A stretch of DNA of 45,438 nucleotides from an uncultured Pseudomonadota bacterium. GTDB lineage: Bacteria; Pseudomonadota; Gammaproteobacteria; Steroidobacterales; Steroidobacteraceae. The DNA is taken from the NCBI GenBank assembly GCA_903884235.1, contig CAISEB010000015.1, positions 1 through 45,438 on the forward strand, written 5' to 3'. A program made the translations under genes and the position numbers. Below the pieces are notes generated by a model. It was not told the DNA's origin. It saw nothing but the letters and a program-made list of their open reading frames with translations, and did not search any database. Position 1 is the first letter of the stretch. Every line of letters begins with the position of its first letter. Of this stretch, positions 31,268 to 39,144 are shown piece after piece.

Positions 31268-33208
31268 TTGTCAGCCGCACAGCAATCCATCGGAGCCGCG
31301 CCGACCCCCCGGTCACCCGCGCCGCAGCCGGCGAAGCGCGTGAGCGTGCTGCTCGTCTCCGCGGACTCGACGGTGTGGCGCGCCCTCTCGGCCGTGCCCG
31401 GCGCCGAACAGATCATGCAGTTCGACACGGTCGCGGAACTGCTCGGCGCATGGCCGCGGAACCGTGCGGCCGTGGTGGCGCTCGATAGCCGATCGGTGGG
31501 CGATCTCGCGGCTGCCCTCGACGCCCTTGGCGCCCACGGTTCGGCCCTCGTTGGCATCGCGCTGGTCGACGAGGAGCGGCGTGTCGGCGCGGCCGTGCTC
31601 GAGCGCCAGCGCCGCCTGTTCGAACACCTGTTGCTGCCACTCGATGCCGGCACGGCGAAGAGCGTGCTGGAGCACGCCTCGGAGGAAGCCCAGGCACGGC
31701 GTGTGCTGGAGGTCGGGGACCCGACGCCCGAGGCCGCGCCCGTAGACCCCTCGCCGCAGGCGGCTGCGCCCGTCGTCGCGACGCCCGCGCCGGCCAGCTC
31801 AGCCGAAGCACCGCGACGCCACCGGCGCACCACCGCAGCCCCCGCGGCGCCGGCTGCACCGGCCTCGAGCGCCGGGTCGCCGCGGCGCCGCCTCTGGATC
31901 GGCGCCGCCGCCGTGGCGGCCCTGGCCGCAGCGACCGGCGTCTGGTACCTCACGCACGGCACGGACTCCCTGCCGGCGCCGAAGGCGCCTGTCGTCGTCC
32001 CGACGCCGGCTGCGGCTTCATCGCCCGCGACGCCACCCGCGGCGGTCCCCTTGGCTTCGGTGGAAGAACAGGTCGACCCACTGCTTGACCGGGCGCGCGC
32101 GGCGATGCGCGACCGGCGCTACATCGATCCGCCGGACGACAACGCGTTCGCGCACTACAAGGCGGTGCTGGCGCTCGACGGGAGGAACGGCGAGGCCCGG
32201 CAGGGGCTCGCGCGGATCGCCGAACTCCTGCTCGTGCGCGCCGCCGGTGCACTTGCCGCCCGCGACAACGCCGCCGCGCTACGCTCGCTCGAGGCGGCGC
32301 GCGCGATCGCGCCGGATCACCCGCGGCTCGCCGCGCTCGATTCCCAGGTCAGTGCACACGCCTCCGAACTCTCCGCAGGCCAGGTCCAGGCCGCGATGCA
32401 GGCGGGGGCCTTCGCGCGCGCCGCGACCCTGCTCGGCCAGGGCGAGAAGGCCGGCGTCATCAGCGCGGGAGATGCGGCGAGCCTGCGCCAGGAACTCGGG
32501 CGGCGCACGGCTGCGGCCCAGATCACCGAGCTTATGCGCCTCGTGCAGGCGCGCATCAGCCAGGGGCAACTGCTGGAACCCGCCGGCGACAGCGCCAAGG
32601 GCTACCTTGCCGCCCTTGCGGAGCGCGGCGGCCCGGGGATGGCGGAGGAGGTCGCCCGCCTGACGGATCTCTATCAGAAGCGGGTGACCGCGGAAGCACG
32701 CGCGGCGATCGCGGCCGGCGCCTGGACGCAGGCCGACGCCTGGGTCGCTGAGTTGCGCACCACAAAGGGTGGCAGCGCGCTTGCGCAGCCGATCCAGAAG
32801 GACATCGACCGGCACGCTGCGGACAGCCGTGCCCCCGAGCCCACCCGTGCCGCACCGCCGCCGGTGGACGCACCCCCGGCCCCGGTCGTGGCCCCGATCA
32901 CGACGGCGGCGCCCGCGCCGGGCATCGCATCGCCCGCGCACCTCGCCAAGCCGCTCAAGGTCGACTACCCGCGCGCGGCGGCACTCGCCAACGCGTCGGG
33001 CTGGGTGACGGTCGAAGCCGAGATCGACGGCAATGGCCACGCCTCCGCTGTCCGCGTGCTCGCAGCCGAACCCACCGGCCTGTTCGAGAGCGCCGCGCAG
33101 GATGCGGTGCGCCGCGCGACGTTCCTCCCGGCCACGGCCACCGACGGCAGCCACCCGCGCACCACGGTGTCGCTGCGCGTCCGTTTCAGGCTGGACGACC
33201 GCCCGTGA
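31268..33208 (+). CDS. Degenerate receiver / transmembrane / TonB C-terminal domain fusion
   Basis: This 646-residue protein has an unusual build. Residues about 24-140 look like a CheY-like receiver ('VSVLLVSADS', 'AAVVALDSRS' with Asp73 at the phospho-acceptor place), but the first acidic pair and the beta5 Lys-Pro are missing, so it is probably a pseudo-receiver. A Pro/Ala-rich linker leads to one transmembrane helix (about 209-228). The periplasmic part has TPR-like helices (about 265-540), a second Pro/Ala linker and a TonB_C domain (about 560-645; 'DYPRAAALANASGWVTVE', then 'ATFLPATATDG'). The start is taken as TTG at 31268 with GGAGG at 31254-31258; a GTG at 31211 is in frame but lacks a site. 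It is the first of four same-strand genes with a kinase, a CheY-like protein and CheX. Classic TonB features (ExbBD-type helix with His, Pro-rich Glu-Pro/Lys-Pro span) are weak, so it may not energise TonB-dependent receptors. Confidence 0.82.
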   Translation: MSAAQQSIGAAPTPRSPAPQPAKRVSVLLVSADSTVWRALSAVPGAEQIMQFDTVAELLGAWPRNRAAVVALDSRSVGDLAAALDALGAHGSALVGIALVDEERRVGAAVLERQRRLFEHLLLPLDAGTAKSVLEHASEEAQARRVLEVGDPTPEAAPVDPSPQAAAPVVATPAPASSAEAPRRHRRTTAAPAAPAAPASSAGSPRRRLWIGAAAVAALAAATGVWYLTHGTDSLPAPKAPVVVPTPAAASSPATPPAAVPLASVEEQVDPLLDRARAAMRDRRYIDPPDDNAFAHYKAVLALDGRNGEARQGLARIAELLLVRAAGALAARDNAAALRSLEAARAIAPDHPRLAALDSQVSAHASELSAGQVQAAMQAGAFARAATLLGQGEKAGVISAGDAASLRQELGRRTAAAQITELMRLVQARISQGQLLEPAGDSAKGYLAALAERGGPGMAEEVARLTDLYQKRVTAEARAAIAAGAWTQADAWVAELRTTKGGSALAQPIQKDIDRHAADSRAPEPTRAAPPPVDAPPAPVVAPITTAAPAPGIASPAHLAKPLKVDYPRAAALANASGWVTVEAEIDGNGHASAVRVLAAEPTGLFESAAQDAVRRATFLPATATDGSHPRTTVSLRVRFRLDDRP

Positions 33209-33287
33209 GCGATCCCGACGGCCGCAACGATTTCAATGCTGGGCGGTGCCACGCCGAAGATGACGGGCGCTGCCGGAGATCCATCCG

Positions 33288-35480
33288 ATGAAGAGCTTGC
33301 TTGCCCGGTTGCCCGCGATCCGTGGACCCCTGATGGTCGGACTGGCGCTGACGATCTTCGCGCTGGCCGTATTGCTGCCGGGCTTCCAGCTTGCCGGCCG
33401 GCTCGACGACACGACGGCCGCGCTGCGGCTGGTCAGCGAGCAACGTCGCCAGGCCGACGTGATCGCGGCCGCCCTCGGCGGCCTGCGCGACCGCCTCGAG
33501 AACTTCGGCTACGTCGACGAGCCCCTCAACGAAGTGCGCAACAGCATCGCCGAGCTCGATGCGCTCGTGCGCACGCTGCGCACCGACCCGTCCTCCGCCG
33601 GGCGCTTCACGGTCAGTGCGTCGCGTCCGATCCTGTCCGAGAAGGCGCTGACGACCGACCTCGAGGCCTTCGAATCGACGTGGGAGCATTTCCGTCAGGG
33701 TCTCGTGCCCGTCGCGGCCTTCCAGGGCGTCCCGTACGCGGACAGCGAGTCCGCGGGCGTGAAGCTCAACGAAGGCGGCCGGATGCTCTCGAACGAGTCG
33801 CGCAAGGCGATCGCCAACGCGCGCAAGGACGGCGTGCGCATGACCGCGGCGCTCGGCCAGCTCGCCGGCGCGCTCGAGGCCGAATCGGCGCGCCTCTCCG
33901 CCTACCTGCGCTTCCTGATGCTCGTGGCACTGGCCGGCACCCTCGCGTGTGGCGCCGTGCTCGGCTACTTCGCGGTCTCGCGGCGTCGCCAGGCCGTGAT
34001 GCTGGCCGACGCCAAGCGCCAGACCGAGGGCATCCTGCAGACCGTGAAGGAGGGCCTGTTCCTGCTCGATCCACAGGGCCGGATCGGTGCGGCCCACTCG
34101 GCCTCGATGCGCAAGCTGTTCAAGCGCGACCCGGTCGCGGGGCTCACGCTCGAGGAGCTGCTGCGGCCGATCGTCCCGGAGAAGTCGTTGCACACCGCGC
34201 TGCGGTTCGTCGAGGTCCTGTGGTCGGAGCGCACCAAGGAAAATCTCGTCAAGTCGATCAATCCGCTGCAGGAAGTGGAGGTCGTGTTCGAGACCGGCAG
34301 CGGCGGCCAGGAGACGCGCTGGCTCGAGTTCGACTTCCACCGCGTGCGCGAGGACGGCAAGGTTGCCCACCTGCTGGTTTCCGTCAACGACGTGACCGCC
34401 CGCGTTCGCCTCGGTCGCGAGCTCGCGGAACTGCGTGAACGGGCCCAGTCCCAGGTCGACACGCTGCTCGGCGTGCTGCAGGTCAATCCCGAACAGCTGC
34501 GATCGTTCCTTGCGGACACCGATACCTCGATGCGCATGATCAACGCCATGCTGAAGGACCCGACGCACGACGATGCGGGGCTGCGCCGCAAGATCGAATC
34601 GATCTTCCGCCAGATGCACGCGATCAAGGGCGAAGCGTCCGCGCTTGGTCTCACGACCGTGCAGAGCAGGGCGCACGATTTCGAGGAAGGGCTCAAGTCG
34701 CTGCGCGAGCAGGACGTCATCGGTGGCGGTGACTTCCTCCCGCTCGCAGTGCGACTCGACGACCTCTTCTCCCACCTGGAATCCCTTGGCGAGCTGGTCG
34801 AGCGCCTGGCACAGCAGGGACTGGATGCCACCACCGCCGATGAGACCGGCAATGGTGCCGTTGCCCGCGCGGCCCCACGGGTGACCGAGCAGGCACGCGC
34901 GGCCAATACCCTGATCGACACCCTCGACCAGCTCGTCGAACGGGTCTCGCAGGATCGCGGCAAGGCGGCACGGCTCGTCACCCACGGCCTCGACACGGTG
35001 CCGGAGCCGTACCGGCGCGCGGTGAAGGACATCGCCGTGCAGGCGCTGCGCAATTCACTGGTCCACGGCATCGAGCCGGCCGACCTGCGACAGATCGGCG
35101 GCAAGCCGCCGACCGGCACGCTCACCGTGCATTTCAAGGACGAGGGCCAAACCGGCTTCAGGCTGGTCATCGAGGACGACGGCGGTGGCCTCAGCCTGCG
35201 TCGCATCCGCGAGGCGGCGGTGGAGCGGGGCATCCTCACGCGAGAGGACGCCGCGCGCCTTGACTCCAAGCAGCTCCTGCCGCTGCTGTTCCGCGCGGGT
35301 TTCTCGACCCAGGCTGAAGCGGACGGCGACGCCGGCCGGGGCGTCGGCATGAGCGTCGTCGCGGAGATCGTCAAGGATCTCAATGGCCGGCTCGGGATCT
35401 CGAGCGGCGAGGGGCGCTACACGCGACTCAGCGTCGTGCTGCCGGCGCTCGGCACGGTCCAGTCCGCGGCGGTGGCCTGA
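33288..35480 (+). CDS. Membrane-anchored CheA-like kinase with PAS, HPt and HATPase domains
   Basis: The 730-residue product has two transmembrane helices (about 14-36 and 208-230) enclosing a helical periplasmic sensor, a PAS domain (about 243-372), an HPt domain with His444 in 'MHAIKGEASALG', a helical linker that may dimerise (about 485-575) and a CheA-type ATPase domain (N box 'ALRNSLVHGIEP' with Asn589, 'IEDDGGGL', 'GRGVGMSVV'). This is the CheA order HPt then ATPase, but with a sensor in place of CheA's P5/CheW-binding domain, which is absent. So it should autophosphorylate in trans on the HPt and pass phosphate to the CheY-like protein encoded 15 nt downstream. The ATG at 33288 lies 79 nt after the TonB-like gene. 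GGAG lies about 14 nt before the start. Confidence 0.88.
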   Translation: MKSLLARLPAIRGPLMVGLALTIFALAVLLPGFQLAGRLDDTTAALRLVSEQRRQADVIAAALGGLRDRLENFGYVDEPLNEVRNSIAELDALVRTLRTDPSSAGRFTVSASRPILSEKALTTDLEAFESTWEHFRQGLVPVAAFQGVPYADSESAGVKLNEGGRMLSNESRKAIANARKDGVRMTAALGQLAGALEAESARLSAYLRFLMLVALAGTLACGAVLGYFAVSRRRQAVMLADAKRQTEGILQTVKEGLFLLDPQGRIGAAHSASMRKLFKRDPVAGLTLEELLRPIVPEKSLHTALRFVEVLWSERTKENLVKSINPLQEVEVVFETGSGGQETRWLEFDFHRVREDGKVAHLLVSVNDVTARVRLGRELAELRERAQSQVDTLLGVLQVNPEQLRSFLADTDTSMRMINAMLKDPTHDDAGLRRKIESIFRQMHAIKGEASALGLTTVQSRAHDFEEGLKSLREQDVIGGGDFLPLAVRLDDLFSHLESLGELVERLAQQGLDATTADETGNGAVARAAPRVTEQARAANTLIDTLDQLVERVSQDRGKAARLVTHGLDTVPEPYRRAVKDIAVQALRNSLVHGIEPADLRQIGGKPPTGTLTVHFKDEGQTGFRLVIEDDGGGLSLRRIREAAVERGILTREDAARLDSKQLLPLLFRAGFSTQAEADGDAGRGVGMSVVAEIVKDLNGRLGISSGEGRYTRLSVVLPALGTVQSAAVA

Positions 35481-35495
35481 CATGGTCGTGCACGC

Positions 35496-35876
35496 ATGAA
35501 TGCCTTGCGCATGCTGAGGCTGATGATCGTCGATGACTCGAACATCATCCGGCGCCGCATCGAGCGGTCGCAGCAGATCGATCGGCTGGAATTCGTCGGG
35601 GCGGCGGCGAATGGCGTCGAAGCCATCAGCCTCTTCGCGAGCACCGACCCGGACGTCGTGACGATGGACCTGACGATGCCGGAAATGGATGGCGTCGAAT
35701 GCGTCGAGCGCCTCGTCGCGCTCAAGCCGGAACTGCGCATCCTGGTCGTGTCGGCCCTCGCGGACAAGGCAACCGCCGTGGAGGCGATCGCGCGCGGCGC
35801 GAATGGCTTCCTGTGCAAGCCCTTCACCGATCGGCAGCTGAACGACGCGCTCGCGGAATTGCTCCAGGACGTCTGA
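35496..35876 (+). CDS. Single-domain CheY-like response regulator
   Basis: The 126-residue receiver is complete: Asp13-Asp14 ('IVDDSN'), phospho-acceptor Asp58 ('TMDLTMPEMDG'), Ser86 in 'VVSAL' and Lys108 ('FLCKPF'). There is no output domain, so it acts by protein binding or as a phosphate sink. It resembles the CheY-like proteins found with CheX in other bacteria more than motor-binding CheY, but the target cannot be read from sequence. The start is the ATG at 35496; the ATG at 35511 is also possible. The next gene starts 1 nt after its stop. Confidence 0.93.
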   Translation: MNALRMLRLMIVDDSNIIRRRIERSQQIDRLEFVGAAANGVEAISLFASTDPDVVTMDLTMPEMDGVECVERLVALKPELRILVVSALADKATAVEAIARGANGFLCKPFTDRQLNDALAELLQDV

Positions 35877-35877
35877 G

Positions 35878-36327
35878 GTGGTGAACGAGGCCGAAATCCG
35901 GACGTTCCTTGAAGGCGCCGTGAATTATTTCGACGTCAGCGCGCGGCAGCCCGTGGCGGTCGGGGTTCCCTACCTCGTGACCACCGGTTCACCGCCGGTG
36001 CATGACTACACCGGCATCATCGCGGTGTCGGGACGGCGCAACGGTGCCGTGTGCTTCACCGCGCCACGCTCGATGCTGATGGTCCTGCTGATGAGGATGA
36101 ACGAGCCGGACACCAGCGACGCGAACATGCGCGATCTGGTCGGCGAAGTCGCCAACACGATTTCCGGCAATGCGCGCCGCGACTTCGGCAAGGATTTCTC
36201 GATTTCCGTGCCAAACGTGGTCGAGGCGAGCAGCGGCCCGTTGCCGCTGCCGCGGGACCTGCGCCCGGTCGTGATTCCGCTCAATTGGCGCAGCCACAGC
36301 GCGCGCCTGATCGTCTGCCTCTCCTGA
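35878..36327 (+). CDS. CheX-like CheY-P phosphatase
   Basis: The 149-residue protein fits the CheX/CheC family. The catalytic E-x-x-N pair is in 'DLVGEVANTISGNARRDFG' (Glu90 and Asn93). CheX proteins dephosphorylate CheY-P as dimers, so the likely substrate is the receiver encoded immediately upstream. The GTG at 35878 is 1 nt after the upstream stop, with AGGA at 35866-35869; the next codon is also GTG. This ends the four-gene module, and the gene stops 6 nt from the convergent TPR gene. Confidence 0.88.
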   Translation: MVNEAEIRTFLEGAVNYFDVSARQPVAVGVPYLVTTGSPPVHDYTGIIAVSGRRNGAVCFTAPRSMLMVLLMRMNEPDTSDANMRDLVGEVANTISGNARRDFGKDFSISVPNVVEASSGPLPLPRDLRPVVIPLNWRSHSARLIVCLS

Positions 36328-37634: not shown

Positions 37635-37836
37635 GCCGTCGAGCGATGGATTCCCGCTCCCTGAGCGGTCGCCTTACCTGCATCCGGATTGGTATTTTCG
37701 CTGGTATCGTTGCGGAAATGCCGTGGGCACGATGAAAGCCGAACGCGACAATCGCCGGCTGAATCGGAGACAATCGACGCACTCGGGAAGGGACCTCCGG
37801 GACCCGACGTTCGCGTCGTTTGCACGAGTTCGCGCG

Positions 37837-39144
37837 ATGACCTTTTCCCAGACCACACCCTCCCTCAGTCCGGCGATCGCCGACCTCGTGCGCGCATTCC
37901 CCCTGCCCGCAGCGGCCGTCCACCTGGACGGACTTGTCGGTTTCGTCAACGACCGCCTCGCTGCGTGCTTTGGCGCAGCCTGCCTCGAGACGAGCGCGCT
38001 GCGCGAGGTGATCAGTCGCTCCGATCCCGTTTGGCGTGCGCTTCGCTTGCGCACGGTCTCTGGCGAAGAAGTCGACGTGCTGGCGCAGTCGATCCGCCAT
38101 TTCCCGTACGTGATCCTGATGATCGACGACACCACGGGCGCGGAATGCGCTGGTGAAGTCGAGGGGCTGCGGCGCGCGCTGCTCGAGCGCCAGGGCGTGA
38201 TTCCGGTCGACGCCGGCGCAACCACGGACGCCGACGGTCGGTCGCACATCGACACGGTGATGGACGCCGAGATGACGAGGAGCGGCCGCTACAAGCAGCC
38301 GCTCTCGCTGGCGTTGATCGAGATCGACCGGGACGGGGCTGCAGGCAAAGAGGACGAACGGCGCGCGGCCTATCCCGTGCTGGCGGAATTGATGCGCACG
38401 TTGCGCGCCGGGCTGCGGATGGCGGACCAGCTGTTCCGCTGGGACGATGATCGGTTCGTCGTGCTGGCTCCCGTGACGGATTATCGGCATGCCTATACGT
38501 TGGCGACGGGCCTGCGCATCATCGTGCAGAAGCACGAGTTCGCGAGTGGCAGTCCACTGACGGTGAGCATCGGGGTCTCCGAGCTCATGGACGGCGAACA
38601 ACGGGACGCGTGGTTCGGTCGGGCGGAGCGCGTGCTGCGCGACTCGAAGGACACCGGCGGCAACAGCGTCGCCGTGGACCCGCGCGGCCGGGCGGACGCC
38701 TGGGTCGTGTCCGGTGAGACGAGGCCGTCGCGGCTGGTCTGGCTGGATAGTTACGAATGCGGACATCCCCTGGTCGATGCCCAGCATCGGGAGTTGTTCG
38801 AGCTCACCAACGAACTGCTGGAGATCACCACCGGCGGCACCGCGGACTCAGCGAGGGCGCACGACGCGCTGCAGCGCCTCCTGGCGCACGTCGGCCGCCA
38901 TTTCGCGGATGAGGAGCGAATCCTCGCGTCGATCGAGTATCCGTTCCTCAGAACCCACCGGCTTGCCCACCGCGAGCTGCTGCAGCGGGCCAGGGCGGTG
39001 GCAGAGCGGGTCGCGGCACCGGGCCAGGGCTACGGGCAGGTCGTCGAGTTCCTCACGACCGAGGTGGTTGCCAACCATGTTTTTGGCTGCGATAGCGACT
39101 TCTTCGCCCTCGTAAGGCAGCACTGCAGTACGGGCACAGCCTGA
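37837..39144 (+). CDS. PAS-like / degenerate GGDEF / bacteriohemerythrin protein
   Basis: The 435-residue cytoplasmic protein has an N-terminal PAS-like part (about 15-100), a GGDEF fold (about 134-285) and a C-terminal hemerythrin domain (about 301-428). The GGDEF signature reads DDDRF (203-207, in 'FRWDDDRFVVL'), so diguanylate cyclase activity is unlikely. The hemerythrin domain has a complete di-iron ligand set: His317, His355, Glu359, His374, His378, His414 and Asp419, so O2 or NO binding is expected. The start is taken as the ATG at 37837; an upstream GTG at 37723 would add 38 residues that do not look like native protein. Hemerythrin-GGDEF proteins are known, for example in Vibrio, with the opposite domain order. 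Confidence 0.88.
   Translation: MTFSQTTPSLSPAIADLVRAFPLPAAAVHLDGLVGFVNDRLAACFGAACLETSALREVISRSDPVWRALRLRTVSGEEVDVLAQSIRHFPYVILMIDDTTGAECAGEVEGLRRALLERQGVIPVDAGATTDADGRSHIDTVMDAEMTRSGRYKQPLSLALIEIDRDGAAGKEDERRAAYPVLAELMRTLRAGLRMADQLFRWDDDRFVVLAPVTDYRHAYTLATGLRIIVQKHEFASGSPLTVSIGVSELMDGEQRDAWFGRAERVLRDSKDTGGNSVAVDPRGRADAWVVSGETRPSRLVWLDSYECGHPLVDAQHRELFELTNELLEITTGGTADSARAHDALQRLLAHVGRHFADEERILASIEYPFLRTHRLAHRELLQRARAVAERVAAPGQGYGQVVEFLTTEVVANHVFGCDSDFFALVRQHCSTGTA

Follow-up and report, generated by a model that had tools for sequence, protein, structure and literature searches.

Organization of the operon

Four neighboring genes occupy the + strand at positions 31268 to 36327 of the window, the whole 45,438-nucleotide stretch of DNA analyzed here. 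The window is contig C15 of the host genome, which measures 4.12 Mb and is 95% complete. ORF analysis of the window shows the genes to be open, collinear, and tightly spaced. Pfam assigns TonB_C to the first gene; PAS_4, Hpt, and HATPase_c to the second; Response_reg to the third; and CheX to the fourth. ORFs, domains, and coordinates confirm the four gene types proposed by the initial annotation. The features are as follows.

31268..33208, + strand: gene 1, 646 aa with a TTG start, ordered pseudo-receiver, transmembrane (TM) helix, helical stretch, TonB_C (ORF, TonB_C match, model)
31331..31735, + strand: gene 1 pseudo-receiver domain, residues 22-156 (alignment of 17 sequences and predicted fold)
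31883..31954, + strand: gene 1 TM helix, residues 206-229 (hydrophobicity and model)
32963..33193, + strand: gene 1 TonB_C domain, residues 566-642 (domain match)
33288..35480, + strand: gene 2, membrane sensor kinase of 730 aa, ordered two TM segments, PAS, HPt, HATPase (ORF and Pfam)
34047..34409, + strand: gene 2 PAS_4 domain, residues 254-374 (Pfam)
34497..34775, + strand: gene 2 HPt domain, residues 404-496, with the His444 codon at 34617-34619 (Pfam and residues)
35037..35447, + strand: gene 2 HATPase_c domain, residues 584-720, with N589/H593, DDGxG, and GRGxG (Pfam and residues)
35496..35876, + strand: gene 3, single-domain CheY-like receiver with Asp13/14, Asp58, Ser86, and Lys108 (Pfam and residues)
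35878..36327, + strand: gene 4, CheX phosphatase with Glu90/Asn93 (Pfam and residues)

The kinase carries hydrophobic segments at residues 15-33 and 203-221, so the stretch between them should be periplasmic. Hpt and HATPase_c are present in 20/20 kinases, and the best solved matches of the ATPase region are CheA chains, with an E of about 1e-45. The H-kinase_dim domain (P3) is called by Pfam in 0/20, yet the profile aligns with CheA from position 489 on; this domain is often missed by HMMER, according to a published survey (PMC10542144). The window's protein ends 10 residues past HATPase_c, and none of the 20 kinases, the window's included, matches the CheW domain (PF01584) at an E of 0.1. 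Since that survey detected the CheW domain in all CheA sequences (PMC10542144), the kinase is not a CheA by that definition. Its sequence nevertheless suggests that the chemistry may be the same as that of CheA.

The third gene encodes a receiver with the DD, D, S/T, and K positions and no output domain, and is a single-domain CheY-like regulator. The fourth scores 69.6 bits against PF13690, for which the cut-off is 27, and its profile matches the solved CheX structure 3hm4 at an E of 4.8e-14. It is the sole PF13690 match found in the 95% complete host genome.

The phosphorylation and dephosphorylation residues, which had been described as complete in kinase, receiver, and phosphatase, are near-invariant in the alignments of relatives. 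Among the titled loci (the best 80 of 204 relatives), His444 is kept in 74/74 alignable kinases with 4 gaps, the six key CheY positions in 79/79, and CheX Glu90/Asn93 in 80/80. Outside the order, the CheY positions are kept in 13/13 copies and His444 in 12/12, locus L174 being omitted from the kinase residue count (12 of 13 copies). The Arg of the G2 box is replaced by His in two of these 12 kinases. The CheX Glu is kept in 14/14 and the Asn in 12/14, both exceptions being Ser in locus L179, where a trio copy and an extra CheX account for one each. Conservation of the catalytic residues argues for a working kinase-receiver-phosphatase set.

Conservation within and beyond Steroidobacteraceae

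Linkage of the four genes was assessed in a titled-genome search seeded with CheX, from which the best 80 of 204 relatives were kept. These 80 loci represent Steroidobacteraceae and unclassified relatives; the CheX relatives (best 80 of 204) include Povalibacter uvarum, Peristeroidobacter agariperforans, P. soli, and Steroidobacteraceae MAGs, and many others are titled merely Proteobacteria or Gammaproteobacteria. The module is present in the cultured strains Povalibacter uvarum DSM 26723 and Peristeroidobacter soli JW-3. A locus was eligible if the sequence upstream of CheX spanned at least 450 bases for CheY, 2800 for the kinase, and 4200 for the TonB-like gene, and loci cut by contig ends were excluded from the eligible counts. 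Within the best 80 of 204, CheY adjoins CheX in 79/79 eligible loci, the kinase is present in 67/67, and the TonB-like gene is linked in 59/59 (52 upstream and 7 downstream, all on one strand), counts that are not independent trials because the titled set shares members with the unnamed one and all the loci have common ancestry. The synteny check called for by the initial annotation was therefore passed for all four genes. On the kinase tree, which was quickly built without frames shorter than 600 aa and has several long branches, the downstream placing of the TonB-like gene corresponds to a single change.

A kinase-CheX unit was found in 23/60 relatives searched, with the host's own genome counted and some loci cut by contig ends. 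At one locus (L050, G019:C254), the kinase adjoins CheX with the CheY gene absent between them, which may reflect either genuine loss or an assembly error.

The distribution beyond the family was followed in a draw of 369 genomes of the class, where a CheX of this type was defined by an E below 1e-40 and a full-length kinase by a score over 250 bits, with at most three kinase candidates scored per genome. Such a CheX occurs in 12/369 genomes, and the same 12 hold a full-length kinase; ten of them lie outside the order. A further 19 class genomes have weaker CheX matches only. Across a phylum draw of 398 genomes, 18 match the CheX profile at an E of 1e-10, all from the same class, and the strong CheX type is confined to G000 and G144. 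Full-length-type kinase paralogues with neither CheY nor CheX beside them are present in G313 and G408.

Kinase, CheY, and CheX are adjacent in 13/13 copies of the ten genomes outside the order, and the TonB-like profile has no match in the stretches fetched around these 13 copies. The kinase-CheY-CheX trio is older than the TonB-like linkage. As the trio occurs elsewhere without the TonB-like gene, the TonB-like protein stands outside the core mechanism. The four-gene module originally described thus holds as a linkage within the family, while its core comprises three genes, with no TonB-like gene beside the trio outside the family.

Two of the trio loci outside the order depart from the usual layout. 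At L174 (G215:C25), the kinase is split across two reading frames, with CheY and CheX open. At L179 (G144:C4), two neighboring trio copies are accompanied by an extra CheX, and Ser replaces the catalytic Asn in 2/3 CheX.

Probable array-free signaling and candidate outputs

CheA-type kinases are usually seen as slaves of receptor arrays. The module shares with CheA-CheY-CheX pathways an HPt phospho-site, a CheA-like ATPase, a CheY, and a CheX-type phosphatase with the E-x-x-N motif. It differs in that its kinase is a membrane protein with a PAS domain and without a CheW domain, and in that no receptors or CheW are linked to it. Matches in the host genome number one for MCP, one for H-kinase_dim, and three for CheW; they cluster in about 8 kb of contig C12, and the module's own contig has no MCP or CheW match. 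The H-kinase_dim match sits in a 1908-aa ChpA-like frame, and the group is read as a Pil-Chp-like cluster. A search of 20 proteins near the trios outside the order found no MCP or CheW.

These observations bear on whether the module could consist of conventional chemotaxis genes that have moved out of an array cluster. The CheA-like ATPase and the CheY and CheX families are what such an origin would leave behind; however, the kinase has no CheW domain (0/20), the host genome has no further MCP or CheW match, and 0/20 proteins near trios outside the order belong to either class. Displacement is thus very improbable and was rejected. We favor, with a probability of about 0.7, an array-free kinase-CheY-CheX two-component unit, as read from the sequences. 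The initial proposal of a stand-alone signaling system with a built-in reset is well supported by the co-conserved unit, the lack of a CheW domain in 20 kinases, and the retained CheX E-x-x-N, and its view that this is not a chemotaxis array agrees with the placement of all MCP, CheA, and CheW matches in the Pil-Chp-like cluster on another contig. The term phosphorelay was too strong, given that a single His-to-Asp step is visible.

By analogy with the protein families, the membrane kinase, with its periplasmic helical sensor and PAS domain, would autophosphorylate its own HPt at His444. The phosphate would then pass to Asp58 of the adjacent CheY, from which the adjacent CheX would remove it, yielding a resettable signal. 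The operon is a variant form of CheA/CheY/CheX-type signaling, and searches of an open-access library turned up no description of it. With a conserved CheA-like kinase serving as its own receptor and with a dedicated CheY and CheX, it offers the pathway in minimal, array-free form.

The output of this unit may be sought at the flagellar motor. Array-free flagellar control would have CheY-P bind FliM, with CheX standing in for CheZ where flagellar cheA/cheZ are absent, and there is precedent in the HpaS-VemR-FliM system of Xanthomonas, described as a sensor kinase and an orphan single-domain receiver that binds FliM (PMC7036368). The receiver there is an orphan rather than a member of a kinase-CheY-CheX set. 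The host genome carries a flagellar gene set on contig C18 (L199, L200; G000:C18:60000-95000). Both there and in G006 (L203, G006:C206), mot genes come immediately after fliA, without intervening che genes (names from translations); neither genome has a CheZ match, and the host genome has one CheA. The host FliM retains LEPEEIDALLKG, an EIDALL peptide; together with the lack of che genes at fliA-mot, this makes motor control by the module's CheY possible in this bacterium. To our knowledge, the HpaS-VemR-FliM system has no CheX and no TonB-like partner.

Of the family's genomes, 17/22 that carry the module have a FliM match, against 6/15 that lack the module (Fisher p 0.038, uncorrected for kinship, size, or completeness). 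However, five module genomes (G003, G005, G015, G019, and G020) have no FliM match, G005 and G020 being 97% and 98% complete. Of the family genomes that are flagellated, 7/9 lacking another CheA or CheZ carry the module, as do 9/13 that have one; the count omits the ambiguous G024 (8/10 if it is counted as CheA-less) and displays no clear enrichment. A genome lacking both the module and CheA (G026) holds a similar FliM peptide, and the module's CheY finds its best curated matches in CheB-type receivers (93 bits) and the archaeal CheY model (81 bits), ahead of the enteric CheY model (54 bits). Flagellar control is accordingly an unlikely explanation, and as a general function it is weakened by the five FliM-less module genomes and the absence of clear enrichment in CheA-less flagellates. 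A second CheA is also found in FliM-less genomes, so any tie of that CheA to flagella is putative.

Cross-talk with type IV pili, in which the kinase or CheY would feed the host's Pil-Chp-like system, is suggested by the presence of that cluster and by PilJ-type sensor domains in related kinases. PilJ (PF13675) is found in 1/20 family kinases (alignment A2), the window's not among them; outside the order, where 10 of 13 kinases were scanned, four score above the cut-off, one just below, and five are weaker or lack it. Nevertheless, many relatives have long ChpA-like frames whether or not they carry the module, and no pil genes are linked among the window genes scanned, which leaves cross-talk improbable.

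The trans-envelope protein, the Ser/Thr-kinase variant, and flanking genes

Within Steroidobacteraceae, the array-free unit is permanently linked to the trans-envelope protein encoded by gene 1. All 17 gene 1 sequences, the window's included, have TonB_C, a domain shared with TonB energy transducers. A TM His near the N-terminus that couples to ExbB is a marker of those transducers. Gene 1 instead has an N-terminal receiver fold and a TM segment near residues 170-230, where no His is found in any of the 17 sequences. The predicted model has a mean pLDDT of 80.4, and both the model and a fold comparison identify the N-terminal domain as a receiver fold; the comparison (VIA-align) covers mainly residues 22-156 and barely extends to the helical stretch and TonB_C. 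Asp73 is kept in 17/17 and the receiver Lys is missing in 14/17, the window's included. As many orthologues also carry D-D near the usual acidic pair, residual receiver chemistry is possible.

In architecture, gene 1 most resembles GltG (PglI) of Myxococcus, a 640-aa protein with a cytosolic FHA domain, a TM segment, a periplasmic part, and a TonB domain at 570-637, belonging to the AglRQS-Glt gliding complex (PMC3169522). GltG has in common with gene 1 a cytosolic signaling domain, a TM segment, a periplasmic part, and a C-terminal TonB domain, a likeness of architecture. The two differ in that GltG has an FHA domain where gene 1 has a pseudo-receiver, and in that GltG is linked to AglRQS-Glt and gene 1 to kinase-CheY-CheX. 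The likeness gives a weak lean to an output role, which may be slightly favored over input. For output, we propose that CheY or the kinase is the most likely docking partner of the cytosolic pseudo-receiver, and that the helical stretch and TonB_C could link the switch to a partner in the periplasm or outer membrane.

The opposite direction was implied by the initial annotation, with gene 1 as an envelope sensor: it would sense the state of the envelope or outer membrane, and its pseudo-receiver would modulate the kinase. A protein that spans the envelope with a cytosolic receiver fold and is linked to the kinase in 59/59 eligible loci (best 80 of 204) is suited to such a role. However, the kinase already has a periplasmic region and a PAS domain, and the trio lives without gene 1 outside the family, so input through gene 1 is a tentative reading. 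What activates bacterial pseudo-receivers is posed as an open question in a published article (PMC12632262), and a linked pseudo-receiver-TonB_C protein would be a concrete case for it.

A variant of the operon brings two bacterial phosphorylation systems together. In 11/59 eligible loci (best 80 of 204), gene 1 and the kinase are separated by a gene for a receiver-like domain joined to a Ser/Thr protein kinase. The pattern needs three changes on the kinase tree, which fits one gain with losses, one loss being in the window's lineage; more than one gain is possible. Six loci (L036, L037, L039, L040, L054, and L055) supplied the Ser/Thr-kinase profile, and their own matches are by construction. 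Five more distant family kinase paralogues that were fetched (L054-L058), built of PAS, HPt, and HATPase domains, all lie beside a receiver-like Ser/Thr kinase gene, the call at L057 coming from the custom profile alone, and have no CheY or CheX alongside; L056 also has a TonB-like gene. Among the 20 proteins scanned near trios outside the order, one recalls these family loci: at L177, a Ser/Thr kinase whose receiver is intact comes after the trio. The other 19 are of various kinds or have no match.

These loci indicate that the same kinase type is wired to CheY-CheX or to a Ser/Thr kinase, and sometimes to both. The HPt sensor kinase may conceivably be a plug-in platform with CheY-CheX as its ancestral partner. 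The family would then have added a GltG-like trans-envelope effector, and paralogous kinases would have given up CheY-CheX in favor of a receiver-Ser/Thr kinase, turning His-Asp signaling into Ser/Thr phosphorylation. This scheme is speculative; if true, the gene 1 effector would let a CheY-type signal act across the cell envelope.

Genes flanking the module vary among the lineages that carry it. No fixed neighboring process was found. A GGDEF-hemerythrin fusion gene at 37723-39144 of the window, the third gene downstream of CheX, has no match above 40 bits in 28 relative loci. Genes sized like a kdp operon, a guess from their sizes, lie 3' of the module in up to 34/80 loci. A TPR gene follows the module in 5/6 loci fetched from the window's genus.
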